NCBI GenBank assembly: GCA_020348925.1
Contig: CP070758.1
Location: 3,537,837 to 3,574,101 of the forward strand
Direction of reading: 5' to 3'
DNA: 36,265 bases
DNA from: Gemmatimonadota bacterium
Lineage (GTDB): Bacteria; JBHIER01; G020348925
Part shown: in pieces, positions 496 to 35,682 of the stretch
How positions within the stretch are numbered: the stretch's first letter is position 1
Layout: each line of letters opens with the position of its first letter
The notes under the pieces: generated by a model
What the model was told of the DNA's origin: nothing
The model's database searches: none
The model's input: the letters and a program-made list of their open reading frames with translations, nothing else
Translations under genes and position numbers: made by a program

Positions 496-2421
496 TTAGT
501 GGCGGTGATCGCGCTCGTACTCATGATCATAGTCGTGTTTGTAGTGATCGCGGTCGCGGCGGAAATGGTGGGATCGTGACGGATTGATCTCGTCCAGGGC
601 CCAGACCGCCATGGCCCGAACTTCGGGCTCGGGATCGCGGAGGGTTTCCAGGAGAGCATCAACGATACGCTCGATGTCGCGGAGAGAATCCCACGTATCA
701 CGGATACCGATGAGGCCACAGTTGAAAGCCGCTTCTCGGCGCATGTCCGGCTTTTTGTCCTCAAGCCGCCTCAGTAATGAGGGCACGCTTTCGGTATAAT
801 CGATGGCCCCTTCATCGGCTCTGAATCCATCAGTTACTCTTTTCACCAGGGGTCCGTTCATCAGGGTGCCGGCCCAGACCTGGTCGTTCTCCCAGGATCT
901 CCAATTCCAATCCGCGAAGATCTCCTCCCGGGCCCATCCGGCCTTTCGACTGCCTCTATTTTCAATCTCGCCCAGAGCCCACACCACAGCTGTTCGCATG
1001 TCTTTCTCTCTTTTGGAAATCTCAACCAACGGATCGATGGCAACCGGGTCTTCGATCTCTCCCAGTGAAAGAATAGCCATCTCACGCACACGTGGATCAC
1101 TGTCTTCGAGAGCCCAGATCAGAGGGACGATCGATTTTTTGTCCTTGATCTCACCGAGGGCCCAGGCGGCAACCTGTCTCACATCGGCGGACCCGTCCCG
1201 AAGAGCTTCGGTCAGTGGTATCACAGCATCGTGATCCTCGTGCTCCCCGAGCCACCAGGCGGCTCTCTGACGGATTATGGGATCTCTGTGTGCTTCCAAG
1301 TCCATTATGAGATCACCCGTTACAGGTATAGACTGTCTAACTCCAAAAACATCCAGTGTTATGAAGGGCAGCATCAGGACCATCAATGCCAGGGTGATGA
1401 GGACAAACTTCTCCGTGCTCAGTGAGGTATGGTTTAGCTTTTCATTCATGACGCACCGAATCCTTTCTTTCAATCCGTTTTCTCTGGCCATGGTGACGGC
1501 ATACATCGGTCTGGCCCGTTTCACGTGGGAACGGGCAACCTGGAGGAGGTAGGACGCATATTCGTGATTTCGGACACCCTGCTGCAGAGCGTAATCGTCG
1601 CAGGCCCGTTCGCGTTCCATAGCACTCCGGCGGCTTGCCAGCCAGACCAGTGGATTGGGCCAGTAGAAGGCGCAGGCAATTTGCGTAAGAAGATGAAGCA
1701 AATAATCCCAGCGGGCGATGTGGGCCAATTCGTGCAGCAGAACACTTCGTGTTTGCTCCTCGTTCCACGTCCGTACTTCAGGCGGGAATATGATCACCGG
1801 TCTGAATATTCCCCAGGCAAAGGGTATCGAGATGTTGTCGCTCACCAAACAGCGGACACTTCGCAGAAGACCGAGGCGGGTCGCCAGAGGGACGGGCAGG
1901 CTGGAGACATCCGACGGATCGAGGGGATGAGCGCGATGGGTGAGGGAGCAGACACGAAGAAGATGGATGGTCAGCCTCACGAGGTTCAAAAGGACACCGA
2001 TCCCCCAGAATCCCAGAAGTATCAGGGCCATCATCCTGAGAGGCGAGGGCTCAAACGGTTTGTTATCGGTGGTGGATTCTGATGTCTTCGCGGCATTCGG
2101 TGCTGTTGTGCTTCTTTCGCCCACAGGTTCGGGATCCAAGGATGTCGTGTGGGATACACCGGTTGGGCCCTTGGCGTCCAGCCAGATTTCCTCCAGGGAG
2201 CCAAACTGCCAGGACGGTACCGTGAAAGATACCAGAGGGAGAACCACCAGGATGACAAAAACTGTGCTCCAGGCCAACTGGCGCGCCGCCGCTGAGGATC
2301 GCCTCAGCAGCAAAGCTACCACCCCTGCGGCCGTCACCAGCAGCGTCGCTTTCAAAAAAACAGCGACACCTATCTCTGCCGCAGCCCGTGCCATCATTTC
2401 AATAGTGACTGTATCCATCAT
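496..2421 (-). CDS. BlaR1/MecR1-like M56 metallopeptidase sensor fused to HEAT repeats
   Basis: The M56 family comprises integral membrane zinc proteases that sense a stimulus outside the cell and trigger loss of a BlaI-type repressor inside. Numbering from ATG 2421 (641 aa): membrane helices near 14-38, 52-66, 130-155 and 339-356; the zinc motif HELAH at 230-234; and the downstream ERERACDD helix (268-275), which supplies the third ligand. Instead of the penicillin-binding sensor domain of BlaR1, the C-terminal part (about 372-620) is HEAT/armadillo-type repeats with recurring 'AxWALGEI' helices. The protein ends in a His/Asp/Arg-rich tail with seven His in the last 27 residues. The start overlaps the blaI stop as ATGA (2418-2421), with an AAGGAG site upstream, so the two are translationally coupled. 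M56-HEAT fusions occur in other environmental bacteria. The signal sensed is unknown. Confidence 0.88.
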   Translation of the reverse strand: MMDTVTIEMMARAAAEIGVAVFLKATLLVTAAGVVALLLRRSSAAARQLAWSTVFVILVVLPLVSFTVPSWQFGSLEEIWLDAKGPTGVSHTTSLDPEPVGERSTTAPNAAKTSESTTDNKPFEPSPLRMMALILLGFWGIGVLLNLVRLTIHLLRVCSLTHRAHPLDPSDVSSLPVPLATRLGLLRSVRCLVSDNISIPFAWGIFRPVIIFPPEVRTWNEEQTRSVLLHELAHIARWDYLLHLLTQIACAFYWPNPLVWLASRRSAMERERACDDYALQQGVRNHEYASYLLQVARSHVKRARPMYAVTMARENGLKERIRCVMNEKLNHTSLSTEKFVLITLALMVLMLPFITLDVFGVRQSIPVTGDLIMDLEAHRDPIIRQRAAWWLGEHEDHDAVIPLTEALRDGSADVRQVAAWALGEIKDKKSIVPLIWALEDSDPRVREMAILSLGEIEDPVAIDPLVEISKREKDMRTAVVWALGEIENRGSRKAGWAREEIFADWNWRSWENDQVWAGTLMNGPLVKRVTDGFRADEGAIDYTESVPSLLRRLEDKKPDMRREAAFNCGLIGIRDTWDSLRDIERIVDALLETLRDPEPEVRAMAVWALDEINPSRSHHFRRDRDHYKHDYDHEYERDHRH

Positions 2422-2801
2422 GACCCTTTCTCCTTCTCCAACCACGCCTCTATCCGTTCAATCTCTTCCTCGGAGAGTTTCCCGGAGGAAGTATTTAGCA
2501 AACTCAGGATGGCCCTGGAAGGTGATCCGCCGAAATACGTCCGAATCAGGTCCCGGGTCGCTTTCCGTGATGCCTTCTCGGCGGAGACAGCGGGTGAATA
2601 GATGTAACGGCGGTCATGTTTGCGGTATACGACGTAGCCCTTCTTGGCCAGAATGCCGAGGGTAATTCGGACGGAGTCATAACTGGTCTCATCGGGCATG
2701 CGCTGCACGACATCGGAAACACAGGCCTGGCCCAGTTGGTAGAGGATGTCCATGATCTGCCGCTCCCTCTTGCTGAGATATCCGTTCTGCTGATCTTTCA
2801 T
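2418..2801 (-). CDS. blaI: BlaI/MecI/CopY-family transcriptional repressor
   Basis: A 127-residue winged-helix repressor of the Penicillinase_R family, the usual length. It opens with the family hallmark 'LSKRERQIMDILYQLG' (residues 9-24), followed by the recognition helix region around DETSYDSVRITLGIL and a wing (GYVVYRKHDRRYIYSP). The C-terminal half (about 83-127) is the dimerisation helix bundle, where M56 proteases cleave this family. AAAAGGAG sits a few bases before the ATG. An 18-base palindrome lies immediately upstream, consistent with autorepression. The M56 gene follows with a 4-base overlap, the classic blaI-blaR arrangement. No beta-lactamase gene is nearby, so the regulon is not necessarily for antibiotic resistance. 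Confidence 0.93.
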   Translation of the reverse strand: MKDQQNGYLSKRERQIMDILYQLGQACVSDVVQRMPDETSYDSVRITLGILAKKGYVVYRKHDRRYIYSPAVSAEKASRKATRDLIRTYFGGSPSRAILSLLNTSSGKLSEEEIERIEAWLEKEKGS

Positions 2802-2817
2802 TCAGAGTTCTCCTTTT

Positions 2818-2835
2818 GTGTAAAATTTTTTACAC
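2818..2835. promoter_or_regulatory. Near-perfect palindrome, likely BlaI-type operator
   Basis: GTGTAAAAT/TTTTTACAC is an 18-base inverted repeat with one mismatch, ending 16 bases before the repressor start codon and directly abutting its ribosome binding site. Family operators are palindromes with TACA/TGTA half-sites, and the TGTA and TACA ends fit. Binding here would block transcription of the repressor-protease pair. The divergent gene at 3166 could also be affected, though it is 330 bases away. Confidence 0.6.
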
Positions 2836-3165
2836 TATTTAGACACTTGGGGGTTTCAATTTGTTTCAATTTTTCCGAAACTGCTTTCGTACAAGAAAGT
2901 TGCCCTGCATTACCAATGATCTCCACTCGTTTCTTGAAATCGTACAAATATGATACTGTGAAAACCGTACATCGGTTATTTGTAATTGTCCCAATGGAAT
3001 ATGATGTAAACCTTCATCATCTCAGGTGCGTCTCTTTTACAAAGTCTTTGTCCGACGAAATGAAACAAAGGTGTGAGTATTGTTGTCTCAAATTCGAAGA
3101 ATTTGGAGGACGGAAAGAAAGCTTTCACATTAGAACCGGAACCTTATCCGCGAAAGGAGGAAATG

Positions 3166-4152
3166 ATGCAGAAGTTTTGTATGTGGGTCGTGCTGCTGTG
3201 CCTGATTCTGGGGTGTGGTGTTATCGATATCTCTGCGGATGTTGAGGAATGGGAATTTTCCGGTGTGACAAGAATCAAGGTGAAAGGGATATCGGGTGAT
3301 GTGATCCTGCGCCCGGCGGACGGACGCACGGGCGTCGTCGAGTTGAGGGAGGATGTGCATCCGCGCAGCAGTTTCCACCCCACCGTGGAACAGGAAGGCG
3401 AGACGCTGTATATCAGAGAAAAATGGCGGGGGAATACCTCACGAGGCCGAGTGGAGTGGACTATCCTTCTTCCCGAGCAGGCCGATCCTCCATCCATTCG
3501 GATCAACAATGCATCGGGTAATCTTGATTGTCGGGGCGTCTCCGCCGAAATTGATTTCGAAACGGCCAGTGGTGATATCGTTCTTTCGGAGATGAAGCTT
3601 GGTGACCGGTCCGATTTCAGTACGGCCAGCGGAGATTATATCCTCGAGAATATGACAATCCCTGAGGACGTTGATTTCAGCACGGCCAGCGGCGATTATG
3701 AACTGGAGAACCTCATGATCGAGGAGGGATGTCGATTCTCAACGGCTTCCGGTGATGTAAAATGCCGGAACTGCAAATGTATGGACGACGTGGAGATGAG
3801 TTCAGCCAGCGGTGATGTCGTTGTTCGAGACACGGAGCTTCTGGGGTGGAGTGAGTTTTCTTCGGCCTCTGGAGATGTTGCATTATTTTTCGATAAACTT
3901 CCCGGGCACGACATCACGGCCGGTTCGGCTTCCGGCAAGGTCGTCCTCGAAGTTGACGATTTCGGTGATGATTTTACACTGGTCATGATCAAGCGTGAGG
4001 ACAGGGGTCGCATCTCCTGCCCCTTTGAATACAGTTACGAAGAAACCTTCGACGATTATCACATCTATGAAAGAAGAGTTGTCGAGCGCGGTTCTGGCAA
4101 GCCAGAGATCGAATTACGCACCGCTTCCGGAAGGGTCATTGTCAGGGATTGA
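3166..4152 (+). CDS. DUF4097-like beta-solenoid surface protein with nine ASG repeats
   Basis: About 328 residues from the ATG at 3166, chosen because AAAGGAGG sits 5 bases upstream; a longer frame reaches back to 3073. The N-terminus is hydrophobic and ends in LILGC, so it is a probable lipoprotein or Sec-exported protein. After an N-terminal beta region, the motif [TSN]ASG[DNKR] recurs nine times, mostly at an exact 20-residue spacing (for example TASGDYILEN, TASGDYELEN, SASGDVVVRD). Each copy would form one rung of a right-handed beta-solenoid, as in the DUF4097 / putative adhesin families. An acidic stretch precedes a last repeat at the C-terminus. The biochemical role is unknown. These proteins often sit beside envelope-stress or sensor genes, and here the divergent neighbour is the BlaI/M56 pair. 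A hairpin terminator follows. Confidence 0.78.
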   Translation: MQKFCMWVVLLCLILGCGVIDISADVEEWEFSGVTRIKVKGISGDVILRPADGRTGVVELREDVHPRSSFHPTVEQEGETLYIREKWRGNTSRGRVEWTILLPEQADPPSIRINNASGNLDCRGVSAEIDFETASGDIVLSEMKLGDRSDFSTASGDYILENMTIPEDVDFSTASGDYELENLMIEEGCRFSTASGDVKCRNCKCMDDVEMSSASGDVVVRDTELLGWSEFSSASGDVALFFDKLPGHDITAGSASGKVVLEVDDFGDDFTLVMIKREDRGRISCPFEYSYEETFDDYHIYERRVVERGSGKPEIELRTASGRVIVRD

Positions 4153-4213
4153 TACAGCCGGATTTTTATGCGTCTCTTTCCGTTCGAAGACGCGTATTCA
4201 TTGGATTTACGCT

Positions 4214-4238
4214 GGGGCAAGAGTTGTCCTCTTGCCCC
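4214..4238 (+). terminator. Hairpin terminator candidate after the DUF4097-like gene
   Basis: A perfect 10-bp stem GGGGCAAGAG / CTCTTGCCCC closes a five-base loop (TTGTC), 62 bases after the stop codon. The following T-run is short (TTAATACT), so termination may be partial. No other gene lies between it and 4405. Confidence 0.55.
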
Positions 4239-4404
4239 TTAATACTCTGTAGTTTTCTGTACTTTTTCGAATTTATTCGATGGAAGTGTAAGCCCCGCTT
4301 AAGCAATCCCATATGGCATAAAACAATCCCTTCTTAAAACTTCTCATTTTTATCATCAGAATTGTAAGACTTCAGAATTAAAATTGAATAAAGAGGTTTT
4401 CTAT

Positions 4405-4431
4405 TGCCCTAAAATAGTATAATTTAGGGCA
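4405..4431 (+). promoter_or_regulatory. 27-base palindrome carrying a perfect -10 box
   Basis: TGCCCTAAA and TTTAGGGCA form a perfect 9-bp inverted repeat around a 9-base centre. The centre and the start of the right arm read TATAAT (4418-4423), an exact -10 box. No good -35 hexamer is found at the right spacing, which is common for activated promoters. It lies about 90 bases before the propeller gene. It looks like an operator overlapping a promoter, but it could instead act as an RNA hairpin. Confidence 0.45.
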
Positions 4432-4518
4432 GTACGGTGATCTCATTTCTAAAAACAGGGACATAATGCATGTTCATGAACAGTGATACATGATGGTTGA
4501 AGGAGGAGTGACTTGATT

Positions 4519-6654
4519 ATGTTAAAGAAACGAATTATTATTCTGGTCCTATGTTTGACTGTATCAGCGGGGGCTGAGATATCGGTGAAGACAGTGGATT
4601 TTTTGAAGGAAATCGGTGTCGAAATCAATGCGGCGGGGCCGCTGCTCGTACAAACTGATCCTAGTCGAAATCGCGTCATTGTTGCGAACACTCTGAGCTC
4701 CTCGGTATCGATTATCGATGGAGAGACGCACTCGGTCGTGAATATCCCCATTGGGGGACGGGCACTGCAGCATCTCAAATCCGAGGCGATGACTCTGAAT
4801 AGAGGCACGGGGGATATCTGTCTCATTGCATCGAAGAGCCTCCACATTATTCATCCCGAAAAGAGATCCGCCAAGACGATTCCGACCGACGACCAGTTTG
4901 AATCCGTTGCCGTTGATGAAAGCACCGGCAATGTCTTCATCGCAGGGCGGGAGAGCGGGGAGATGGGATTCTATGAGGCGAAATCGCACAAGCTGAGAAT
5001 GCGCACCTGGCTGGATCACAGGGAGAAACTCATAAACCTCAACCAGACGCCACCTCCGCCAATTCGAAAGGTTGTTGCTGACAACGAGCTCCGAAAAATT
5101 ATTGCCATCGATGGGTACACATCAACCCTCTATCTGTTCAATTCCGATGACGGGCGGGCTGTTGATTCGAGGCGACTCGATCTTACCAGTGGCGGGCGCT
5201 GGCATCTCGCCGGTTACGATGAAAAAACCCATCGTCTGTATGTTGTCGTGGAGACGGATGCGAGGAAAGTGATCGAGGCGGCAAAGGTCGATGTCCTGGG
5301 TAACGATGATATCATTGTACAGCTTCCTGAATTCACCGAAGGTGTAGGAATTATCTACAATCCCAAACGGGACGAGGTTTATGTTCCCTACGATAACCAT
5401 CCATCGGTGCATGTTGTAGATTTTGAAAACGGAGGAAGGATTGATGAGATCAAACTTCCCGCCTATGGCAATGATGCCAGTGCCATCGATTTGGAAAATG
5501 ATTACCTGTACATTGGGAGCTGGGCCCATGGTGAGATCGATGTTATCGATCTGCAGACACGAAAGCTCGTGAGAAGAATCGAGCATTTAGGGATTATTCC
5601 TCATATGTTCAGTATGGCTTTCAATCCCCTTACAAATTTGCTCTATATTCCAAAAGGTGCAACTGCCGTCAACGGCACCTTTGGTGCTGCGGTAAATGTA
5701 TTGGATCCGGTCACGGAACGGTACGAGAAAATTCATACCGGCTGGGCACCTATAGATCTCATCGAGCTGCAAGGAAGAAACAGCTTTCTCGTCTTTAACA
5801 ACGAAGACCAGTTTGCCGAAGTCCATCCGAGCGGTCAATACGAAGTTCATACAGTACCCTATGACTACCCGGTAGAGGCAGCTTACAGTCCGGAGGGCAA
5901 TGTCTACCTTTCCTATGGGCCGCATCAATCCTACTGGCCGACCGTCTATATATGGGATGCAAAGAACGGTATCATTACAATTGACAAGGATGATCTCAGT
6001 TTTTATGACCGGCGTGTCCCCCGACAGGCCCACACAATGGCTTTGGATGTCGAAGGCGTTTTGTATTATAGTCAGAACAATTGGGGAGGGGAGGAACATT
6101 TCTTGGGGAAATTGCTGGATGAAGTTCGCCTCTTTGAACCAATCAAACGGATTGCCCTCGGGGATACGGTTGTCAGGGAAATTAGCCAGAGGATCTTGCA
6201 GTACGATCCCGAATTGCATTGGCTCTATCTCGTTCGAGTGGGGGAAGGGAACGAAGATCCAAGTATTCTTCAAGTCATCGATCCGGACTCGCAGAAGGTT
6301 GAGAAGAGGTTGTTGTTGGGTTTGACGGCCACAGATTTCATCGTAGAGACCGAGAATCTTTATATAGCCAATTTCGAATCGAATACTGTTTCGATTGTCG
6401 ACAAAACGATTTTCTCCAGTCGTGAAATCGAAACTGGTGACGGTCCGCTCAAACTCTGCCTCTGTGGTGGAAAAGTTTACGTTGCAAACCATCTCAGCAA
6501 TACGCTGCAAGAGGTAAAAGAAAAAGGCAAAGCGTTTCCAATTCCATATGAAGGATTTCCTGATAACCTCTTTGTTTTAAGAGAGAAGATCATTATTACC
6601 TCTCATAATTCTGAATCTCTTTATATTTTTCATTTCTATCCTTTTAATGAATAA
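4519..6654 (+). CDS. Secreted YVTN/NHL-type beta-propeller protein
   Basis: About 711 residues. The ATG at 4519 is preceded by AGGAGGAG at 10 bases; an in-frame TTG at 4513 is closer (4 bases) and also possible. The start MLKKRIIILVLCLTVSAGA is a clear signal peptide. The rest consists of repeated four-stranded blade signatures, such as 'NRVIVANTLSSSVSIIDG', 'GNVFIAGRESGEMGFY', 'DYLYIGSWAHGEIDVIDL' and 'NLYIANFESNTVSIVDK', ending with '...KVYVANHLSNTLQEV'. The length fits two propellers of about seven blades. Such proteins are periplasmic or surface scaffolds that bind ligands or partners, and catalysis is not implied. It reaches almost to a propeller fragment at 6676. The substrate or partner is unknown. 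Confidence 0.8.
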   Translation: MLKKRIIILVLCLTVSAGAEISVKTVDFLKEIGVEINAAGPLLVQTDPSRNRVIVANTLSSSVSIIDGETHSVVNIPIGGRALQHLKSEAMTLNRGTGDICLIASKSLHIIHPEKRSAKTIPTDDQFESVAVDESTGNVFIAGRESGEMGFYEAKSHKLRMRTWLDHREKLINLNQTPPPPIRKVVADNELRKIIAIDGYTSTLYLFNSDDGRAVDSRRLDLTSGGRWHLAGYDEKTHRLYVVVETDARKVIEAAKVDVLGNDDIIVQLPEFTEGVGIIYNPKRDEVYVPYDNHPSVHVVDFENGGRIDEIKLPAYGNDASAIDLENDYLYIGSWAHGEIDVIDLQTRKLVRRIEHLGIIPHMFSMAFNPLTNLLYIPKGATAVNGTFGAAVNVLDPVTERYEKIHTGWAPIDLIELQGRNSFLVFNNEDQFAEVHPSGQYEVHTVPYDYPVEAAYSPEGNVYLSYGPHQSYWPTVYIWDAKNGIITIDKDDLSFYDRRVPRQAHTMALDVEGVLYYSQNNWGGEEHFLGKLLDEVRLFEPIKRIALGDTVVREISQRILQYDPELHWLYLVRVGEGNEDPSILQVIDPDSQKVEKRLLLGLTATDFIVETENLYIANFESNTVSIVDKTIFSSREIETGDGPLKLCLCGGKVYVANHLSNTLQEVKEKGKAFPIPYEGFPDNLFVLREKIIITSHNSESLYIFHFYPFNE

Positions 6655-6675
6655 TTTACCCTATTGCATTAGGAA

Positions 6676-8803: not shown

Positions 8804-9883
8804 TTAGGTACGGAACATTCTGGCCAGATCTGCTGTGTTTTTCGGCGTCCAACCAAATACCTTGCGCCACACATCAGTGCTTTCCATACAAAGGTAGATG
8901 AAAACATTTCGATTGTGGGATCGGATCTGCGAAAGGACTTTCGAGTACATCCCAACCCTGATGGGTTTGAGATAGCGCATTTTTCCATCCTGACCAGGGA
9001 TAAATTCCTCATCAATGATCTTGCTCCGTGGGCATCGCTCCCGAATGATGGGTTTTAAACTTGGCGGGTAACGAAAGGTGCCGAGGCTGATCCAAACAAT
9101 GTTTTGAGGATCGATATATTCGAATAACGATTCTACGACACTTTCATAACCTTCTTCCCAATCAGGAGAGTAGATTATTGGATCGAAGTGAAAAGCCAGT
9201 TTATATCCGGCTTCCTGACATTGTCGGGCAGCCTGTAACCGCTCTTCAAGGGATGCACACCCCATTTCCTCTTTGTCAATAATAGTCTGTGGATTAACCG
9301 ACCAGGCTACCACCGTTTTACCACCATGATTTAAATCTAAGAGATTGTTGATCTGATTCGATTTCGTCTTGAGTTCAAACAGGACATTGCTTTTTTTAGA
9401 AAAATAGGGTATGAAAAGTCTGCTCATTTCAGTAATATGGTCAAGCTCAAGACTGTCCGTCAGCTCTCCGGTACCAATGCGCAGAGGCCATCCCGATTTT
9501 CTTTGAAGCCTTTCATCCATCTCTCGCATCAGATCGTTTATGTTGGCATACATAGTGATCAAGGGATTGTTGAAATACATCTGGAGGGCACAATAGGTAC
9601 AGTCGAGTGGGCAACCGATGACAGGACTTAAAATCTGATAGTGACAGCAAATAACCTTTGGAGTTCCGGGGCAGGGTTTGAGCATCCGACCTTTATAGCT
9701 GGTAATGAGGAGATGCTTTTTCCCCTGACCGATGGGATCGGGCTTGGAAAGAATTTCGTCGGTGGCAAGACGAGGATCATCGATGAACTCTATCGGTACG
9801 CCGGCAAGATTGTTGAGAATGGTTTCAGTAAAAGAGGCATTTTCGACCTCAACGTCAATGTAGATTTTTTTTGGTTTGAACAT
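8804..9883 (-). CDS. SPL-like radical SAM protein (spore photoproduct lyase family)
   Basis: A 359-residue radical SAM enzyme. The [4Fe-4S] motif is Cys91-x3-Cys95-x2-Cys98 (CPLDCTYC). The downstream blocks 'GTGELTDSLELD', 'VAWSVNPQTIIDKEEMG', ASLEERL and 'YKLAFHFDPII' match the spore photoproduct lyase family layout. SPL repairs the UV thymine dimer of spores. Here the loop where Bacillus SPL carries its H-donor Cys (Cys141) reads GTGELTD with no Cys, so true photoproduct repair is doubtful. An extra Cys cluster lies at 71, 79 and 80. The gene starts 14 bases after a ParB-fold gene and is likely co-transcribed with it. The enzyme class is secure; the substrate is unknown. Confidence 0.82.
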   Translation of the reverse strand: MFKPKKIYIDVEVENASFTETILNNLAGVPIEFIDDPRLATDEILSKPDPIGQGKKHLLITSYKGRMLKPCPGTPKVICCHYQILSPVIGCPLDCTYCALQMYFNNPLITMYANINDLMREMDERLQRKSGWPLRIGTGELTDSLELDHITEMSRLFIPYFSKKSNVLFELKTKSNQINNLLDLNHGGKTVVAWSVNPQTIIDKEEMGCASLEERLQAARQCQEAGYKLAFHFDPIIYSPDWEEGYESVVESLFEYIDPQNIVWISLGTFRYPPSLKPIIRERCPRSKIIDEEFIPGQDGKMRYLKPIRVGMYSKVLSQIRSHNRNVFIYLCMESTDVWRKVFGWTPKNTADLARMFRT

Positions 9884-9897
9884 TTCTTTGGAAGGCT

Positions 9898-10863
9898 TTA
9901 GAGCATTTCTAAAATGGTTTCAAGCTCCTTTTGTCTGGAAAGAGCGGTAAGTTTGATGATAATCTCTCTTAATTCTTCCTCGTTTTTAAATGAAAAATCA
10001 ACCTTCAATTTTTCTCCCTCAAGAAAGGGAGGAATTGAGAGGGATAGTTCCGGCGGTAGCTTCAACTGTCTCAGGTTGTTCTGTATTTTTTTCTCCAATG
10101 CAGCCAAGGCAGGAAACCGTTTTTCTTTGAGACGTTTTCTGATTGTTTCGATCTTCTGAGGTGTCGGCATATTTTGATCCGCGAGTATTGTTTTCATTTC
10201 ACTATCGATGATTTGGCTGGCCACAATCTCATCTCGGTGGCGGATTTCGTCAATATGTGTGAGAAACTCCTTGAGTTTGTTCGTGCCTAACCTGAGTGGA
10301 ATAATGAGATCAAAGAGGTTCTTCTGATCCTCCCTTGAGAAGCTTGAAAAAAGAGCCGCATTACTGAGAGCGACATTATTTTCGACAATATACGCTTTGA
10401 GGTGATCGTCCAATTCCCAGAGTCGCATAACGTTTTGAAAAATTTTTTTACCGGGTTCGAGATCTAAGAGAGGCATGATATCGGTGATGAGAGTCGCTTC
10501 TTCCATATGACCGATCTCACTCAATTTCCGCAGGCACAATGATTTCTCAATGAGATTCATGGCACGACTTGTCACTGTTTGATGCAGGCTGAGTAAAAGG
10601 GCCTTTGCATCGGAGAGTTCGTCAGAGCTGTAGATAATACTATCAATCTGCTTCATGTTGAGGTCGATACAACTTTGTACTCTCTGAAATCCGGAGATGA
10701 TCTGACAGTATTCTGTTGAATTTATCGTTCGAAGGATGATCGGATGGATAAGTCCAATAGCATGTATCGACTCGGTCAATCGCTTACGATGAGGCATATA
10801 CGAAATTCGGAACCGATCGTTCCGAAGATCAATTTCGACAATTGGTACCTTTTTGTAGATCAT
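9898..10863 (-). CDS. ParB/Srx-fold N-terminal domain protein
   Basis: 321 residues. The N-terminal 110 or so match the ParB nuclease-like/CTP-binding fold: VPIVEIDL at 6-13, 'SIHAIGLIHPIILR' at 32-45, the ParB box I equivalent SGFQRVQSC (57-65), and a box II-like 'LHQTVTSRAMNLIEK' at about 93-107. A helical region follows, with a coiled, lysine-rich segment near 220-275. Box I lacks the double Arg of true ParB (GERR), so CTP chemistry may differ. It is not a chromosome-partition parB by context (no parA). ATGA overlap with the preceding glycosyltransferase and a 14-base gap to the SPL-like gene argue for one operon. The function is unknown; a role with the radical SAM protein is inference. 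Confidence 0.75.
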   Translation of the reverse strand: MIYKKVPIVEIDLRNDRFRISYMPHRKRLTESIHAIGLIHPIILRTINSTEYCQIISGFQRVQSCIDLNMKQIDSIIYSSDELSDAKALLLSLHQTVTSRAMNLIEKSLCLRKLSEIGHMEEATLITDIMPLLDLEPGKKIFQNVMRLWELDDHLKAYIVENNVALSNAALFSSFSREDQKNLFDLIIPLRLGTNKLKEFLTHIDEIRHRDEIVASQIIDSEMKTILADQNMPTPQKIETIRKRLKEKRFPALAALEKKIQNNLRQLKLPPELSLSIPPFLEGEKLKVDFSFKNEEELREIIIKLTALSRQKELETILEML

Positions 10864-14953: not shown

Positions 14954-15566
14954 GTGTTTCATCGAAGAATTCCCCGTGATTCTGCTTCGTGGGTTGGCCA
15001 TAATTATTATGAAAAAGTTCTTTCTTTCGACCAGTGAAACTATGGGGCGATTTCGAAAATAAGCGAAAGTTGAGTTGAAAGCCCTAAATCATTGTAATGT
15101 TGTGAAAGCAACCCATTTGACTGACATTCGGATTGATTTTACGATTAATCCAGGATGGACTTTCTTATTGCTCTTTCTATCCTTCAACAACTCTCGGAGG
15201 CAACCTCTTTTGCCCCACAGGACCACAGGAATGATCGCCGAGTTACAGCGATTCCAATGGTTTTGGACGATCCGCACCATAAAAATGCCTGTCCAAACTG
15301 CAACGTTACAAACGATTATAATGACCGCTCGGCAAGCCAACAGTTGCTCCAAAAATCGATGGGATTAAGTTTGGTGGGATTGCAGGAATAAATGTCGTTT
15401 ATGCATCGTGAAACGTGAAGGAGAGGCTCAGTTATAACCTCACGTTCAAAAAGTTGTTTGCAAGATATGAGTGACAAAAAGCTCTGAGATCTTTCCCCTA
15501 CATCCACGACCAGGAGAATTTTGCAAAAAAAACGAATCCCATCAAGTCGCCAGTTGCATATTTATA
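14954..15566. other. Intergenic region without a supported gene
   Basis: About 610 bases between the L,D-transpeptidase gene and the RiPP promoter. Short frames on both strands (for example 15155-15391 plus and 15089-15352 minus) lack ribosome binding sites and familiar sequence. A hairpin AACGTGA...TCACGTT (about 15407-15446) has a 7-bp stem extended by GG/CC across a bulge, and an inverted pair GATGGGATT/AATCCCATC lies near 15358 and 15535. I see no functional gene. Confidence 0.5.
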
Positions 15567-15594
15567 TTGACATTTCATGTATTTCTGATATATT
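15567..15594 (+). promoter_or_regulatory. Near-consensus sigma-70 promoter of the RiPP locus
   Basis: TTGACA (15567-15572, perfect -35) and TATATT (15589-15594, five of six) with a 16-base spacer. The predicted start near 15601 leaves a leader of about 155 bases before the precursor ATG. It is among the strongest promoters by eye in the window, fitting high expression of a peptide substrate. Confidence 0.7.
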
Positions 15595-15622
15595 GATAAA
15601 AAGTTACATTCGGAAATCCAGG

Positions 15623-15669
15623 CCAACCAGAGGAGACCCATCCGATACAGTTTAAATTCCCCTGGTTGG
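15623..15669 (+). promoter_or_regulatory. Leader hairpin upstream of the RiPP precursor
   Basis: CCAACCAG at 15623-15630 pairs perfectly with CTGGTTGG at 15662-15669. After one mismatch, GG pairs with CC, leaving a loop of about 25 bases. It lies in the predicted 5' leader. It could stabilise the RNA or respond to a ligand; no known riboswitch is recognised. Confidence 0.4.
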
Positions 15670-15756
15670 AAATCGGAATTATTAAATTCTTCTGCAACAA
15701 TGTATTTGTATTCTGGGATCTGTTATTTGGAATTTCACGGAAAGGAGGTGATAACC

Positions 15757-15957
15757 ATGAGTGAAGTGATGGATTGGGGTGAGTGTAGTATTGATAGTAT
15801 CTATGCTTCTAAGTGCGACTCAAACGCTTGCAAGAGTGGCTGCCGCTGCGCCTGTAGTTGCCCGCCAGGTGTGAATTCTGCAAGAAACAGTGATGCTACT
15901 AGTGCCAGCAATACCGTCTCTGTTTATGCAACTTATAAAGAAACCGAAACGCACTAG
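15757..15957 (+). CDS. Cysteine-rich RiPP precursor peptide (66 aa)
   Basis: ATG 15757 is preceded by AAAGGAGGTGAT, a complete complement of the 16S rRNA tail, six bases upstream. The peptide has an acidic N-terminal leader (MSEVMDWGECS), then cysteines at 10, 20, 25, 29, 31, 33 and 35, the last four as C-x-C-x-C-x-C. After a PPG break comes a Ser/Thr/Asn/Ala-rich tail (39-66). There is no signal peptide and no double-glycine cleavage site. Cys clusters followed by a Ser/Thr/Asn tail are what radical SAM/SPASM maturases turn into Cys-to-alpha- or beta-carbon thioether bridges (sactipeptides, ranthipeptides). The layout recalls the clostridial CLI_3235 precursor group from memory. A maturase and exporter gene follow at 16205 and 17772. 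The product activity is unknown. Confidence 0.85.
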   Translation: MSEVMDWGECSIDSIYASKCDSNACKSGCRCACSCPPGVNSARNSDATSASNTVSVYATYKETETH

Positions 15958-16171
15958 AGAACCCGAGGCACTCATCTTTGAAGTTCTCAGGAACCCGGAA
16001 GAATATGAGCGGTACAAGAGGAGTATAGCGGCTAGAATTTCTTGCACTCACCCGTTGTTTCAGGTTGCACTCGTGAGTCGTCTCAGTTCTGAGGCGGCTC
16101 ACGCGCCCCTTTTCGGAAAGGGTAAAGAGGAGGAACAAATAACTATTTGCTCTTTTGTCATCGCCCATTGA
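15926..16171 (+). CDS. Possible small protein between precursor and maturase (doubtful)
   Basis: A frame beginning at ATG 15926 inside the precursor tail (open from 15890) encodes 81 residues to 16171. The first half looks protein-like ('PEALIFEVLRNPEEYERYKR' is amphipathic and charged), the second half does not. It has no ribosome binding site, and the strong hairpin at 16072-16103 lies inside it. It could be a small helper protein or the remnant of one. It is also possible that the whole gap is an untranslated spacer. Confidence 0.25.
   Translation: MQLIKKPKRTREPEALIFEVLRNPEEYERYKRSIAARISCTHPLFQVALVSRLSSEAAHAPLFGKGKEEEQITICSFVIAH
16072..16103 (+). terminator. 14-bp hairpin in the precursor-maturase gap (attenuator candidate)
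   Basis: CGTGAGTCGTCTCA and TGAGGCGGCTCACG form 14 contiguous pairs (two are G-U in RNA) around the tetraloop GTTC. The sequence then runs CGCCCCTTTTCGG, so a short T-run follows after about six bases. It lies 114 bases after the precursor stop and about 100 before the maturase. This fits partial termination or a 3' stabiliser that keeps precursor mRNA in excess over maturase mRNA, as in many RiPP operons. Confidence 0.6.
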
Positions 16172-16204
16172 TTAGTGGGAAGGTTAAGAAGGGGGGAATA
16201 TATA

Positions 16205-17689
16205 ATGAAACAGAGTCCTTTTGTTCATAAATTCAAGACCGCAAAAAATCATTATATTTATGATGTCAATACGAATAACATAATAAAAACCAGTCAAATA
16301 ATTAACGACATAATAGACGACTATGGTACGCTCTCCCCTTCGGCGATTATTCGCAAATGGACGAAGAAATACGAGGCAAAATCGATCAGAGAATCTTTAA
16401 ATTACATTCAGAATTCTTATAAATCTCAGGGCATATTTTCTTCTGATCGGCCAATCACGATGGAATACCCGATGTGTGAAAAACATTTTTGCGAGTCTTT
16501 GCAAAGTAAGTTAAGCGATCTTATATTGAACGTTACGGAGAGATGTAATTTGAGATGTAAATATTGTACCTATTCGGGAAGTTACTATTACTCGAGAAAA
16601 CATTCGATGAGAAATATGTCCTGGGAGGTTGCAAAAAAAGCGATAGACTATTTCCACTCGCATAGTCAGGCTTCAGAGAAGGTGTATGTATCTTTTTATG
16701 GAGGAGAACCTTTGCTCAATTTCGATCTTATTAAAAGAAGCGTAGAATATATTAAAAAATCCACCAAATGGCCTCCCATTATCTTTCACATTACTACCAA
16801 CGGAACATCACATAATGAAGAAGTAATGAAATTTCTAATAGATAACGATGTATTACTCCAAGTGAGCATCGATGGACCATCAGAGGTGCATGATAGATAT
16901 AGAGTTTTCAAAAATGGTAGGAGGTCTTTTAACGCAGTTAGTAAAAATCTGCAAAAACTGAAAGAAATGGACAAAGACTACTTCAAAGACAGAGTTTCTT
17001 TTACGGTCACACTTTCTCCACCATATAAATTATTAGAAGTCTATCGGTTTTTCTCTACTAATGAGTTGGTTGCCCTAAATACCCTGAGTGTCAATTTTGT
17101 AAACTCCTTCGATACAAATTTCTTCAATATTTTTTCGGATCAGGAAAACAAATCTCAACTGAAGGCGCATCTTAAGATTTTAAGAGAACGGTATGTTGAT
17201 TTGAGGGCTAATTCCACCACGACATCTTTCAATGAATTTTTAGGCGAGCTTTTTGAACGATCTCTAATAACAATTCACCGGAGGGACCGGAAGCCGATGG
17301 GAAAAAGTTGTGGACCTAATGGTATCTGTGTTCCTGGAACAAGAAGGTTGTTTGTGAATGTTGAGGGTAAACTCTACCCATGTGAAAGGGAGGGAGAAAC
17401 GTTTTGCATTGGCAATGTGGGAACCGGTGTAGAACGTCGGAAAGTATGGTCTCTGATTAAAAGATATATCGATGAAAGTACTGTAGACTGCACAAACTGC
17501 TGGGCTGTCAGACTCTGTTCATTATGTTTAGCTGAAGCAACGAAAAACCACCATTTTGATTATGCAAGGAAGAGAGAAAACTGCCCTCATGAAAGTTTGA
17601 AGTTTCAAAGAGGTTTAATTCTCTATGCAGAGATCATGGAACGGAATCCGAAAGCCTTTGATTTTGTAAAAGATATGACTATCGAGTAG
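16205..17689 (+). CDS. Radical SAM/SPASM peptide maturase
   Basis: 494 residues from ATG 16205, with AAGGGGGGAA upstream. Order: a PqqD-like peptide-binding region at about 1-95 ('NHYIYDVNTNN' through 'SYKSQGIF'); the radical SAM core with Cys114-x3-Cys118-x2-Cys121 (CNLRCKYC) and GGEP at 166-169; then a SPASM region with Cys369, 375, 393, 401, 429, 432, 438, 441 and 460, enough for two auxiliary iron-sulfur clusters. This is the build of maturases that install Cys thioether bridges in Cys-rich peptides; it resembles the clostridial CcpM type from memory. The substrate is almost certainly the upstream precursor. The gene is visibly AT-rich. The chemistry (alpha, beta or gamma linkage) cannot be read from sequence. 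Confidence 0.88.
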   Translation: MKQSPFVHKFKTAKNHYIYDVNTNNIIKTSQIINDIIDDYGTLSPSAIIRKWTKKYEAKSIRESLNYIQNSYKSQGIFSSDRPITMEYPMCEKHFCESLQSKLSDLILNVTERCNLRCKYCTYSGSYYYSRKHSMRNMSWEVAKKAIDYFHSHSQASEKVYVSFYGGEPLLNFDLIKRSVEYIKKSTKWPPIIFHITTNGTSHNEEVMKFLIDNDVLLQVSIDGPSEVHDRYRVFKNGRRSFNAVSKNLQKLKEMDKDYFKDRVSFTVTLSPPYKLLEVYRFFSTNELVALNTLSVNFVNSFDTNFFNIFSDQENKSQLKAHLKILRERYVDLRANSTTTSFNEFLGELFERSLITIHRRDRKPMGKSCGPNGICVPGTRRLFVNVEGKLYPCEREGETFCIGNVGTGVERRKVWSLIKRYIDESTVDCTNCWAVRLCSLCLAEATKNHHFDYARKRENCPHESLKFQRGLILYAEIMERNPKAFDFVKDMTIE

Positions 17690-17771
17690 GAGTTGGGAGA
17701 ATTTTTTAGAAAAAAGTGTTTTACCCCCTTGTAATTCCCCAATAAATTCATAAATATAGACAGAGAATTTT

Positions 17772-19643
17772 ATGGTTGATTTGTCCGATCTTTTCAAGAT
17801 ACCAATACAACAGACAAACGCCAAGTTCTCGCTTCTATTCCGTGCACTCGCCTTTACCTGGCAAACGGGTAAGTTTTTCACTATCCTGATATTAATAGTC
17901 AACATTATATCCGCCCTTTTTCCTGCGGCAAATTTATTTATTGTAAAAAATGTGATTGACAGTATCGTCAATCTTCTGAATACTCAAAGGAGTGGTGGCT
18001 TAAAGGATTTATCCCTATGGATCGCATTATTGATTGGCATATGGGTTATTCAACATATCATCAGTACCTTACAGACAAGTGCATCATCGTGGTTGGATCT
18101 TCGCGTCAAACAAAATGCTCAAATTTCCATTATGCGCAAATGTTCAGAATTTGATATCGCTTTTTTTGAAAATCCAACTAATTTGAATATGGTGCAAAAT
18201 GCATATGTGGGTGCCACGGGCGATATATTTTATGTCATGATCCTTTTCTTCAGTGTCATTGAAACGATTGTTACTCTTATAAGTTTCATCGCCATACTTT
18301 TTGGATTACACTGGGTGAGTGTTATGATAATCATTGCAACGACTCTACCACAAATTTTTTCCAATAGATATTTTGCCAAAAGAAGATGGGAAATTACTAC
18401 GGGTCTCGTGGAACCTCGTCGTATGAGTAGTTATTATTCAAGTGTAGTAACTCGGAGAGGAGTCGCCAAGGAGATTCGACTGTTTGGTCTCTTTAAACAC
18501 TTTCTCGATCGGTTCATATCTTTCACGGGTCAATTTAGACAGATTGAAAAGACCTTTCTTAAAAAACAGGCAGTGATAAACTTCCTGGTTAACCTTATTA
18601 CTATTGCCGGTTCTTCACTTATCTGGCTTTATATCTTACACCGGGCGATTGGTGGAACAATCAGCATTGGTGATATTGTGTTTTATACTGGAGCAGTATC
18701 AAGCTTTCAAGGTGGTTTATCCACGGTGTTTTCTTATGCAGGACAGGTTTTTCAGCATGTGCTTTTTCTGGGAAACTTCTTTTCGTTCTTAGACCTTGAC
18801 CCTTTCAAGGTCGAGGGCGCACTTAAAGGTCCAGCAAATGTGATTGGAAATCGGAGTGGTCATGTGAAACCACCTGTAATACTCAGAAAGGGTATTGAGT
18901 TTAAAAATGTCTCATTCAAATATCCGCAGACCGATAAATTGGTATTGAACAATATAAGCCTTTTTTTACCTCCTAAGGAATCAGTCGCTTTAGTCGGAGA
19001 AAATGGGGCTGGAAAAACTACCTTGATAAAACTTTTAGTTCGCCTCTATGATCCTACTGAGGGTCAGATACTTATTGATGATAGAGATATAAGAGACTAC
19101 GATTTGGAAAGTCTTCATCGAATATTCGCAGAGATTTTTCAAGATTATATCTGCTATCCTTTGACCGTGCGTGAAAATATTGGATATGGGAATATCGAAA
19201 GAATTGATGATATATCGTCCATACAAAGAGCTTCGCAACTTGCTGGAGTGCATGAATTTATTGAACGCTTCCCAGATAAATATGAGACCTATCTCGGACG
19301 TCTCTTTCAAAAATCGAACATCGACCTCTCGGTTGGTCAATGGCAAAAAATAGGTCTGGCTCGTGCATTAATGCGAGAAGATGCACCCGTGTTGATTTTG
19401 GACGAACCGACTGCAGCTTTGGATGTGTATGCCGAGTATGAAATGTATAGGCAATTTAGCGCAATGATGGCAAATCGTTTAACAATAATTATTTCCCATC
19501 GATTCTCTACTGTTCGTGCTGCCCATCACATTTTGGTTCTTCATGAAGGATGTTTAGTAGAACAAGGTAGTCATGAGAAGTTGATGAATCAGGATACATT
19601 ATACAAAGAAATGTACACTATTCAAGCCGATCGCTTTAAATAA
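17772..19643 (+). CDS. ABC exporter (TMD-NBD half-transporter), RiPP export candidate
   Basis: 623 residues in the type I exporter layout. A six-helix transmembrane domain covers about 35-335; the ATPase covers about 370-615. Walker A is GENGAGKT (409-416), the Q-loop is FQDY, Walker B is LILDE (541-545) with D-loop ALD, and the H-loop is ISHR (His576). The signature motif is LSVGQ (519-523) instead of LSGGQ, a departure in an ATP-binding residue position. There is no C39 peptidase domain at the N-terminus. It starts 82 bases after the maturase on the same strand and shares its AT-rich composition, so it most likely exports the modified peptide as a homodimer. The ribosome binding site is weak (AGAGAAT). 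Leader cleavage would need another protease. Confidence 0.85.
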   Translation: MVDLSDLFKIPIQQTNAKFSLLFRALAFTWQTGKFFTILILIVNIISALFPAANLFIVKNVIDSIVNLLNTQRSGGLKDLSLWIALLIGIWVIQHIISTLQTSASSWLDLRVKQNAQISIMRKCSEFDIAFFENPTNLNMVQNAYVGATGDIFYVMILFFSVIETIVTLISFIAILFGLHWVSVMIIIATTLPQIFSNRYFAKRRWEITTGLVEPRRMSSYYSSVVTRRGVAKEIRLFGLFKHFLDRFISFTGQFRQIEKTFLKKQAVINFLVNLITIAGSSLIWLYILHRAIGGTISIGDIVFYTGAVSSFQGGLSTVFSYAGQVFQHVLFLGNFFSFLDLDPFKVEGALKGPANVIGNRSGHVKPPVILRKGIEFKNVSFKYPQTDKLVLNNISLFLPPKESVALVGENGAGKTTLIKLLVRLYDPTEGQILIDDRDIRDYDLESLHRIFAEIFQDYICYPLTVRENIGYGNIERIDDISSIQRASQLAGVHEFIERFPDKYETYLGRLFQKSNIDLSVGQWQKIGLARALMREDAPVLILDEPTAALDVYAEYEMYRQFSAMMANRLTIIISHRFSTVRAAHHILVLHEGCLVEQGSHEKLMNQDTLYKEMYTIQADRFK

Positions 19644-20152
19644 TAACGAAGATATTTTCTCAAGAAAGGCTCTTCGGTCAAGATAAAGATCCACTCGCCG
19701 TTTTGGGTTCAGCTTCATAAAAGATATCGATTTGAATTTTTCTTATACTTCCATGCAATTCAGTTAATGTGAAATAAATAGAGTGCATTTCGGCTTATCA
19801 TAGATTATGTTATGTTCAATTCAGTCATGCAGGGGGTTTCAAGGATTTTCACCTGCGAGACAGAAATGAGCATACTTTGAGCACCTTTGAAGAGAGTTCT
19901 CTCATGAGGTAAAGGACTTGAAGACGACCATAAAATGCACGCAGTTCTTAACCGAGAAGGCAAGAAAGCGAAGGGCAAGATCGCTATGAAGGTGGCCGGT
20001 GAATCCTCAATTGAGGACAGAGATGCAATCTGACAAGGCAATTTAACTCGGGCTACCATCGTCACTACACTCATCATGACGCGGGTTCAGGGCGACGTTC
20101 AATGCCTCCTGGGAATACGTTAACCTCTATTTCAAGCAAGGGAGCAGATGCC
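19644..20152. other. Intergenic region, no firm gene
   Basis: About 500 bases. A 40-codon open stretch on the plus strand ending near 20034 (with 'NREGKKAKGKIAMKVAGE') looks protein-like but has no start with a ribosome binding site and no recognisable family. It may be a gene remnant. The minus-strand frame 19805-20077 is judged a shadow. No clear terminator was found after the exporter. Confidence 0.4.
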
Positions 20153-20686: not shown

Positions 20687-20819
20687 GATTGGACCACAGT
20701 GGGTATATGATATTCAATGAGAACGCGGTGCCGGTATCCCACTTATTGCATTCGAGTGACGATTTAATATAGAAATGTGTCTATTCAGTCAAGCGATCCG
20801 AAATTTTGGAGGACACCCC

Positions 20820-22112
20820 ATGAATATAAACCGATTTAAACGTTTTTCTCTGGATCGACACGCTCTGTCGTGGGAGTACATCATCAGGCTACCATTGATT
20901 TTCTTTTTGATTGTCATTCTGCCGGTGTGCGTTTTTGGCACTGATCAGAATTCAATTCTTGGGCCACCTCCTGGTAGTTATAGAATCCTGTCGGAGGACG
21001 GACAGGTGCAATTCCCCTTTGAGCTCTACCGCGAGGATATCCGTTTTGAGGGTGAAGTGAACGGTAAAAAAGTGCGCATGCTTCTGGATAACGGTATTCT
21101 CTGGGATCAGATCTTGTTCTTCGGAAGTCCGTATATTGATTCATTGGGCCTCACATATGACGGCGAAGTTGAAGTTGGTGGTGGTGGCGAAGGCAACCGT
21201 GTCAATTCCAATACGGCCTCCGGGGTGACCATCCGCTTTCCGGGTGTGGAATTTACCGGCCAGACGGCCATCGTCACGCCGTTCAGCTCCGGTCTGAGCA
21301 ATTTTTGGGAGGGTGCCGAGGGTCAGGTGAGTGGCACGTTCCTGAAGCATTTTGTGGTGGAACTCAATTTCGATACTATGATCGTAACCCTCACTGAACC
21401 CACGAAGTTCATATACACCGGGAAAGGCGCGGTGCTTCCAATGAAGTCTCTCCCCCAGGGTGCCTGGGCTATTCCTGCGAGGCTGGAATTGTCGGACGGT
21501 CGAACTCTTTCTCTGGATATCATGATGGATCTGGGTGACGGGAATCCGCTGTTTCTCGTGACGGATGAGGCCAACTCCATCGGGCTGCCTGACAAGACTA
21601 TCCAAGCCAGCCTGGGTTTTGGCGTCCAGGGTGAGATGCACGGTCATTACGGCCGGGTCCGGAGCCTTGAAATTGGTGGGTACAAGGTGGATGATATAGT
21701 GGCGAGCTTTGTCTCCAGAGATTACGGCGGCATCGTTTTTCACGAGGCCACTGTGGGGCTGCCGGTGCTGTCGCGTTTCAACTTCACGTATGATTATCCG
21801 TCACAGAGAATGTTTATCGAGCCGAATCACAGGTTTACAGATCCGTTTGAACATGATATGACCGGTATGACGTTGAAACGGAATGAAGAGGGATATCTTG
21901 CCGTCTCCGCCCTGCACCCCGATTCTCCTGCCAGCGAAGCGGGGCTTCGGATTGATGATGTTGTGACAAAAGTCAACGGTAGAACTACCGAACAATTGGA
22001 TTACTGGGATCTGCGACCGATGTTTCGGCAGGAAGGTAAAATAGTCCTTCTGACGGTATCGCGTGATGGCGAAGAATTTGAACTGTCCGTTACGCTTCGG
22101 CGAGTTCTTTGA
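20820..22112 (+). CDS. Two-domain retropepsin-like protein with C-terminal PDZ
   Basis: 430 residues from ATG 20820 (GGAGG seven bases upstream). An N-terminal membrane helix or signal anchor lies at 22-40. Two aspartic-protease-like halves follow: strand-turn VRMLLDNG (Asp90-Asn91-Gly92) and LDIMMDLG (Asp237-Leu238-Gly239). A PDZ domain occupies about 350-430 (GYLAVSALHPDSPASEAGL then IDDVVTKVNG). Canonical sites read Asp-Thr/Ser-Gly, so both active loops are changed. The fold match is good, but proteolysis is uncertain. Bacterial aspartyl protease-PDZ proteins act in the periplasm on unknown substrates. An ABC exporter follows 75 bases downstream on the same strand. Confidence 0.75.
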   Translation: MNINRFKRFSLDRHALSWEYIIRLPLIFFLIVILPVCVFGTDQNSILGPPPGSYRILSEDGQVQFPFELYREDIRFEGEVNGKKVRMLLDNGILWDQILFFGSPYIDSLGLTYDGEVEVGGGGEGNRVNSNTASGVTIRFPGVEFTGQTAIVTPFSSGLSNFWEGAEGQVSGTFLKHFVVELNFDTMIVTLTEPTKFIYTGKGAVLPMKSLPQGAWAIPARLELSDGRTLSLDIMMDLGDGNPLFLVTDEANSIGLPDKTIQASLGFGVQGEMHGHYGRVRSLEIGGYKVDDIVASFVSRDYGGIVFHEATVGLPVLSRFNFTYDYPSQRMFIEPNHRFTDPFEHDMTGMTLKRNEEGYLAVSALHPDSPASEAGLRIDDVVTKVNGRTTEQLDYWDLRPMFRQEGKIVLLTVSRDGEEFELSVTLRRVL

Positions 22113-34162: not shown

Positions 34163-35608
34163 TTATTCGACTTTCTCAACTTTGATACAATCGACGAACA
34201 TATAGGCGGGTACGAAGCCTCCTATCCACAGCTCAATTCTCAGTGTGTTATCTGCCGGACAATAGAGAGACTCTTCAGACGCGTACGATACCCACTCTGT
34301 CCCATGAATGATTAATTCTGTTTCGTCTCTTTCTTCGCCGACATCGCCAGTCGTTAATACGATTTTCCCCCCTCGATCGCTTTCGTTCGCCTTTCCCCAA
34401 CAACTCACTATGTAATAACTGTCTTCTGCCTGTGATGGTAGTTCAATGTATGCTGCGGGCTGTGTACAGCCCCCACCGATAAACAGAGACTGTCTTCCGC
34501 AACCGGGAGCCGGATCGGCTACAAACATCTCCTGAAAAATCCATCGCCAGCCTGTGGTGTCTTCGTCAGATTCGAAGGAATTGAAATAAACGATATTCGA
34601 GGGAAGACATTCGTCCATTCGTAAGATGAGATTCACAATCTTCATTATATCCAGCACATCGACAACCCCATCCCCGTCACATTTGTACGTCGGCCCATTG
34701 CAGTCAGCCGCCTGGGATTCCTCTGACGAAGGATTGTAAATACCTAAGAAAATATGAACAGCTTCAACGATATCCAGAACATCTATGACACCGTCACCAT
34801 TAATATCACCTTTCGAGCGGGCGGGGATGACACCGTTGCATGTCACAGGGACTTCAACCCATCCTCCTCCTGATACTTCTAAAATTCCTTCGCATGGTCC
34901 CGGTTTCTCAGGGTGGCAAGAAACTATGACATCTCTTGATTGGCCTACGTTTAATTCAAAGATATTCGGATAAGCGCTGGCGCAATTTTCAGAGAAAATA
35001 TGTACGTTAGCACTTCGAGTTCCTACGTTACAAATAATCAATGTATCAATTCCTACGCTCCCGATCCATATATCGCCAAGATCAAACTCTGCAGATGATA
35101 TTTCCAACATTGGATCACAACAAAATATATCTATATAACCATTTTCAACAGAGTGTGTATATTCCATTCCTGAAGAGTTGGCAAGCTTTGTATTGAATAG
35201 AGTCAAAGGATAGTATTCCCCTTCTGCACAATTCCAAGTAATATCGAGGGTGAACTCAGCTATCGAACCGGAACCTGGAGCGATGAATGTGCCGATACCT
35301 GTCCCGGCAAACTTCACCACGCCTGGATCAGGATTGCTAGCTTGGAATATGTGTAAGTCCGCAGATCGATCTGTCCTGGTTAAACTCGCTGGATCGATAG
35401 TGAAACAGTCAGGATCGAATATCATATCGAATTGAATAGCTGCGACATTACCATCATTCTCCAAACTGATTGTGAGAGATCTATTAGTGTCTCCCGTGCA
35501 CGCGAATCCAATATCATCCACTCTCAGCACCATCTGGCCAAAGACACCGCCATTTAGTAATAAAATAAATGCTGTGGTTAGAATTAAGAAAAGAGTATTC
35601 TTTGTCAT
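34163..35608 (-). CDS. Secreted cohesin-like and dockerin protein
   Basis: 481 residues from ATG 35608 (AAGGAG upstream). Signal peptide at 1-24. A cohesin-like domain occupies about 25-165 ('VRVDDIGFACTG' region, IQFDMIFDPDCF, IAEFTLDITW). A beta-sandwich region follows (about 170-280, with VGIDTLIICNVGTRSANVHI). Two dockerin calcium loops come next, GDINGDGVIDVLDIV and CDGDGVVDVLDIM, then a jelly-roll-like C-terminal domain (YFNSFESDEDTTGWRW... FVDCIKVE). Having cohesin-like and dockerin-like parts in one chain allows self-assembly or oligomerisation. The C-terminal half is closely related to the next upstream gene. The ligand is unknown. Confidence 0.8.
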   Translation of the reverse strand: MTKNTLFLILTTAFILLLNGGVFGQMVLRVDDIGFACTGDTNRSLTISLENDGNVAAIQFDMIFDPDCFTIDPASLTRTDRSADLHIFQASNPDPGVVKFAGTGIGTFIAPGSGSIAEFTLDITWNCAEGEYYPLTLFNTKLANSSGMEYTHSVENGYIDIFCCDPMLEISSAEFDLGDIWIGSVGIDTLIICNVGTRSANVHIFSENCASAYPNIFELNVGQSRDVIVSCHPEKPGPCEGILEVSGGGWVEVPVTCNGVIPARSKGDINGDGVIDVLDIVEAVHIFLGIYNPSSEESQAADCNGPTYKCDGDGVVDVLDIMKIVNLILRMDECLPSNIVYFNSFESDEDTTGWRWIFQEMFVADPAPGCGRQSLFIGGGCTQPAAYIELPSQAEDSYYIVSCWGKANESDRGGKIVLTTGDVGEERDETELIIHGTEWVSYASEESLYCPADNTLRIELWIGGFVPAYMFVDCIKVEKVE

Positions 35609-35682
35609 TATATGGCTCCTTGGACACGTGTCATTCAATGTTCAAGATTTGGGATCAATCCACTATGAATTGGTTTAAATTA

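Follow-up and report, generated by a model that had tools for sequence, protein, structure and literature searches.

Gene content and setting of the locus

Three genes make up the locus, coding for a small Cys-rich peptide, a radical SAM/SPASM maturase and an ABC exporter, all on the forward strand downstream of a promoter-like site (Table 1). They lie in a window, meaning the whole stretch of 36,265 nucleotides analysed here, which corresponds to positions 3537837-3574101 of a single 5.04-Mb contig (G000; 96.3% complete, 0.52% contamination). The host phylum is represented by this one genome only in the collection searched. An earlier note on this DNA had described peptide, maturase and exporter on one strand behind a near-consensus promoter, and each of these elements was found where that note had placed it. 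When the 365-nt upstream region was resampled 2000 times under a Markov model, a promoter with at least 11 of 12 matches arose by chance in 0.6% of cases, and one with the additional TG in 0.05%.

Table 1. Features of the peptide-maturase-exporter locus (positions in the window)
Feature	Position	Strand	Description
Promoter-like site TTGACA-N16-TATATT	15567..15594	+	11/12 matches, sigma-70-like, TG before -10
Perfect 12-nt Shine-Dalgarno (SD) AAAGGAGGTGAT of precursor	15741..15752	+	ATG at 15757
Precursor gene	15757..15957	+	66 aa, 7 Cys; no Pfam or NCBIfam family
Two tandem hairpins in precursor-maturase gap	16074..16122 (16074-16101, 16106-16122)	+	no T run
Radical SAM/SPASM maturase gene	16205..17689	+	494 aa; RRE ~1-75, core C114/118/121, SPASM
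ABC exporter gene	17772..19643	+	623 aa, no peptidase domain
Low-GC block	15400..19750	no strand	38-41% GC vs ~45-55% around; borders approximate

The gap between the precursor and maturase genes measures 247 nt and its predicted fold is weak (z = -1.9); the two hairpins are perhaps an attenuator or an mRNA-stabilising element. A match to Rfam STnc400 in the gap was below the gathering threshold and was rejected. The exporter gene is followed by a SnoaL-like gene and then by a gene for an aspartyl protease/PDZ protein (20775-22112). The latter was left unassigned as leader protease, since its GC3 of 0.56 is native-like and another gene lies in between. Within the locus we recognised neither a leader protease gene nor an immunity gene.

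The precursor peptide

The precursor has the sequence MSEVMDWGECSIDSIYASKCDSNACKSGCRCACSCPPGVNSARNSDATSASNTVSVYATYKETETH, with Cys at positions 10, 20, 25, 29, 31, 33 and 35. The CxCxCxC motif (29-35) is followed by Pro-Pro-Gly (36-38) and then by a Cys-free tail of Ser, Thr, Asn and Ala, so that the 66-residue, seven-Cys peptide with CxCxCxC core, Ser/Thr/Asn tail and full SD reported earlier was recovered in all its parts. Its SD is far better than that of the exporter, which would fit the need for a substrate in excess.

TIGR04065, the CLI_3235 precursor model, gave no match to the peptide at E<=1, whereas the precursors of the related loci L015 and L039 do match. With our own HMMs, including one built from 18 clostridial precursors, the peptide scored better than most plain shuffles but not better than control shuffles with fixed Cys positions; hence we do not claim homology to clostridial or other precursors. 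A 93-aa frame (15890-16171) that overlaps the precursor end has no Pfam match and was rejected as a gene.

The maturase

Among the NCBIfam models, TIGR04068 (CcpM) matched the maturase best with 367.4 bits, followed by RumMC (NF035951) with 272.4, lachnocin with 229, TIGR04148 with 207, PapB with 189 and SCIFF with 162 bits. None of them reaches its own cut-off, which is 500 bits for TIGR04068, where the true member L015 scores 615, and 720 bits for RumMC. A comparison with TIGR04065 and TIGR04068 had been proposed as a check, and it came out divided: TIGR04068 is strong but stays below its curated cut-off, and TIGR04065 has no match at E<=1.

The CNLRCKYC motif and the nine C-terminal Cys named in the earlier note are both present. 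The motif supplies the radical SAM Cys C114/C118/C121 (CxxxCxxC) in a domain that is above the cut-off of PF04055, and the nine Cys lie at residues 369, 375, 393, 401, 429, 432, 438, 441 and 460. In an alignment of 30 sequences the three radical SAM Cys and seven of the nine C-terminal Cys are invariant. These include the complete SPASM motif CX9-15GX4C-CX2CX5CX2-3C-C (C375-G388-C393, C429/432/438/441 and C460, all invariant), while the Pfam SPASM model gives 17.9 bits, under its cut-off of 21.5. The AlphaFold model (mean pLDDT 91.4, pTM 0.89) comprises RRE, radical SAM and SPASM domains, with the N-terminal, PqqD-like RRE modelled as three strands and then three helices (7-75, pLDDT ~90-98). 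A PDB profile search matched CteB (5wgg) over positions 6-474 (E 1e-67). Foldseek likewise placed CteB first (5why/5wgg, 'thioether bond formation'; E 4e-25), ahead of ChlB, anSME, TigE and SuiB. With TIGR04068 as the best HMM, RumMC as the next and CteB as the best fold, the assignment as a RiPP SPASM maturase of the thioether type is well supported.

Related loci

Searches of the genome_contigs and viral_contigs collections with single sequences found no relatives, and an alignment query was needed; the alignment-based scan of genome_contigs yielded 80 loci spread over many phyla. A tree built from 87 maturases places the window maturase outside the canonical clostridial CcpM clade (37 rows, SH-aLRT 95) and as sister to the maturase of genome G251 with a support of 97; two G251 rows in this tree are the same protein from overlapping loci. 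In the host itself about 50 radical SAM domains are found, one of which alone matches the maturase at E<=1e-40.

We found a Cys-rich small ORF led by an SD within 650 nt upstream of the maturase, in the sense orientation, at 31 of the 82 related-maturase loci with enough upstream DNA, and in antisense at one of the 82. The background rate is about 1% (11 of 1034 stretches). The CxC clusters of the peptides are retained in related loci while other residues vary. An Aminicenantes locus (L031), for example, has the upstream Cys-rich peptide ...SWCICGCTCGTVKDSED..., and locus L020, laid out as peptide, maturase and ABC exporter like the window, has the peptide MERLDWGLGRVVTARGCICTCACG....

In G251, which holds the nearest relative of the window maturase, the order is exporter, two peptides and two maturases, with an exporter of the window type. 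In this locus (L022, 5408-11575) the Cys-rich peptides contain 9 and 7 Cys, and the maturases, both CcpM-like, stand in tandem.

Loci like this one turned up in Aminicenantes, WOR-3, TA06, Omnitrophota, Planctomycetes and others, so that an occurrence outside clostridia is not itself new. For the host of the window, the earlier note's remark that it falls outside the usual clostridial range is correct, but it applies equally to these other lineages. Many of the related loci come from metagenome bins in which single host assignments can be wrong, although it is unlikely that the overall host breadth is an artefact of such misassignment.

The exporter and acquisition of the cassette

The exporter has an ABC_tran domain and a weak ABC_membrane match, and a Pfam search detected no peptidase C39 domain, in agreement with the peptidase-less exporter described before. 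Over all 623 residues it is 76% identical to the exporter of a locus in TA06 bacterium DG_78 (L075), and at the DNA level 77% identical over 1862 nt, a similarity confined to the gene. The RecA proteins of the two genomes are 65% identical. Host RecA is 62-69% identical to that of Latescibacterota, TA06, WOR-3 and G251 genomes, which makes none of them close kin of the host. Lateral exchange of the exporter is the best explanation for a higher identity in the exporter than in RecA. The TA06 locus (416-5710) contains a 98-aa Cys-rich peptide, a CcpM-like maturase, a second radical SAM gene nearest to the grasp-with-spasm type, and the shared exporter.

GC3 is 0.37 for the maturase, 0.35 for the exporter and 0.43 for the short precursor gene, compared with 0.41-0.64 for the other window genes tested. 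The low GC3 of maturase and exporter, together with the exporter match in a TA06 locus that has a different enzyme, suggests that the cassette, coincident with the low-GC block, is likely a horizontally acquired unit. Flanking direct repeats of at least 16 nt, as expected of an insertion, were not found, and the plasmid and phage collections held remote relatives only and no transfer vehicle. We rejected the exporter family as a RiPP marker, since relatives at 33-38% identity mostly stand alone. One of these relatives (33%; L138 in G045, 23-6659) has a signal-peptidase-like gene and two radical SAM-like genes as neighbours and may belong to another peptide maturation locus.

Comparison with known systems

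The known CcpM/CLI_3235 cassette consists of a TIGR04065 precursor, a TIGR04068 maturase, TIGR04066, an S8 protease and an ABC exporter, as in SacP23 of Paenibacillus polymyxa (PMC10731318). SacP23, the product of a TIGR04068 locus, is antibacterial; its bridges have not yet been shown (PMC10731318). The window shares with this cassette the Cys-rich peptide directly upstream of a TIGR04068-like maturase and the ABC exporter. It differs in that the precursor lacks the MKKLGK...EAY leader, and in that no TIGR04066, ACP-like or S8 gene is present in the locus; TIGR04066 is present in L039 and L099, and an S8 protease in L039. TIGR04066 had no match in the host genome, and control genomes gave none either. 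Judged from the unmatched precursor, the maturase with 367 of the 500 required bits and its position outside the clostridial clade, and the missing TIGR04066 partner and S8 protease, the window locus is not a member of TIGR04065/TIGR04068. As a further relative of bacteriocin-like systems, this RiPP locus belongs to a known kind, but it stands outside the named equivalog families, has a reduced gene content and bears a clear mark of transfer.

RumMC2 likewise consists of RRE, radical SAM and SPASM domains and installs four C-alpha thioethers, linking CxC to Asn/Glu in hairpins (PMC8188230; PMC8172795). It first abstracts the C-alpha hydrogen, and the CxC donors are joined to acceptors that lie 7 and 11-13 residues further downstream (PMC8188230; PMC8172795). 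The Ruminococcin C system (RumMC1/2) thus resembles the window in its enzyme architecture and in CxC donors that precede the acceptors, but RumC has two separate hairpins and two maturases, whereas the window has a single CxCxCxC run with three upstream Cys and one maturase. CteB of the SCIFF system (TIGR03974) comes nearest among solved folds along the entire chain, RRE and SPASM included, yet identity in the structural alignment is 27%, the maturase reaches 162 of 425 bits and the precursor has no SCIFF match. The TA06 locus, close in its exporter and in the pairing of a Cys-rich peptide with a CcpM-like maturase, differs in a maturase of ~30% identity, in its second radical SAM gene and in the CxxC/CxxxC spacing of its peptide.

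Proposed product and alternatives

We consider it likely that the three genes form a minimal, horizontally acquired locus whose product is a thioether-bridged peptide (RiPP) destined for secretion. The earlier proposal of a new sactipeptide or ranthipeptide holds for a RiPP locus with a thioether-type maturase; the choice of class goes beyond the sequence and leans towards a sactipeptide, since the Cys cluster comes first and the Cys-free tail after it. The peptide is probably a nested-hairpin sactipeptide. Its precursor would be made in excess from the strong ribosome-binding site, and the maturase would bind the N-terminal part of this precursor through its RRE domain. The radical SAM centre may then abstract hydrogen from acceptors in the Ser/Thr/Asn/Ala tail, which would be attacked by the CxCxCxC thiols to give a nested hairpin with sactipeptide-type S to C-alpha links and its turn at Pro-Pro-Gly. 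By analogy with RumMC2 we infer a ring map in which Cys35, 33, 31 and 29 would bridge progressively deeper into the tail (40-55). The product would be secreted by the ABC exporter, and a protease encoded elsewhere would cut off the leader. A bacteriocin-like or signalling peptide is the most likely role.

Radical SAM enzymes with a SPASM domain also form C-C, ether and other links. What holds for the model families may not apply to the chemistry of the window maturase, because it scores under the TIGR04068 cut-off and its precursor has no family. We regard it as rather unlikely that the product is a ranthipeptide, in which the same maturase would make S to C-beta or C-gamma bridges of short spacing instead of a C-alpha hairpin. 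PapB and SCIFF, which score on the maturase, are ranthipeptide enzymes, and the best fold, CteB, is a SCIFF maturase, but the sactipeptide enzyme RumMC scores higher than either model and the precursor has no CX3D-type repeats, with every Cys before the Cys-free tail as in hairpin sactipeptides. It is improbable that the maturase catalyses a different radical SAM modification, such as a C-C cyclophane, an ether, an epimerisation or a cyclopropyl group, with the Cys serving, for example, for disulfides or metal binding. The chemical diversity of SPASM enzymes and the remote structural relative TigE (8vpo) would allow for it; yet the models with the highest scores describe enzymes for Cys-rich peptides, several of which are known to form thioethers, and it is the CxC clusters that related loci retain.

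Somewhat unlikely, too, is a product that acts as an internal cofactor, metal carrier or quorum signal and not as an exported antimicrobial, the ABC protein being a co-acquired general exporter. Immunity and protease genes are indeed absent from the locus and the more distant exporter relatives often have no RiPP neighbours, but the closest relative of the exporter (76%) is part of a further locus with Cys-rich peptide and radical SAM genes, and an exporter of this type also accompanies the closest relative of the maturase. Finally, since five ORFs in the window, the precursor included, pass the same crude Cys/SD filter, the case rests on the linkage to the enzyme and not on the peptide alone. 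These four other ORFs, and a host genome in which no homologue of the peptide was found beyond E 0.6, could suggest a chance frame with the true substrate elsewhere. Against a perfect SD, a strong promoter upstream, and a position and Cys pattern as in the 31 related loci, we hold this to be very improbable.

The locus brings a cassette of the thioether-RiPP type to a phylum with a single genome in the collection. The likely transfer of the exporter ties it to the TA06 locus with its different enzyme, which suggests that such cassettes are put together from interchangeable pieces, far beyond gut clostridia. To our knowledge, no described sactipeptide has the ring pattern of a four-rung CxCxCxC hairpin with three further bridged Cys. 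We put forward only tentatively, and think it doubtful, that all features combine here: a four-rung nested thioether hairpin on CxCxCxC, three more bridged Cys upstream, a minimal three-gene cassette and an exporter swapped between unrelated maturases across deep phyla. Since it comprises a single peptide, enzyme and exporter, the cassette is naturally compact, which makes heterologous testing easy.

Other features in the window

By eye, further genes of the window resemble known families. A radical SAM protein similar to spore photoproduct lyase and a ParB-like protein are encoded side by side on one strand (8804-10863), and a BlaR1-like membrane peptidase with apparent HEAT-type repeats adjoins a BlaI-like regulator (496-2801). 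Moreover, two adjoining proteins (34163-36186) with similar C-terminal parts carry GDxNGDGVxDVLDI-type repeats that resemble dockerin repeats.
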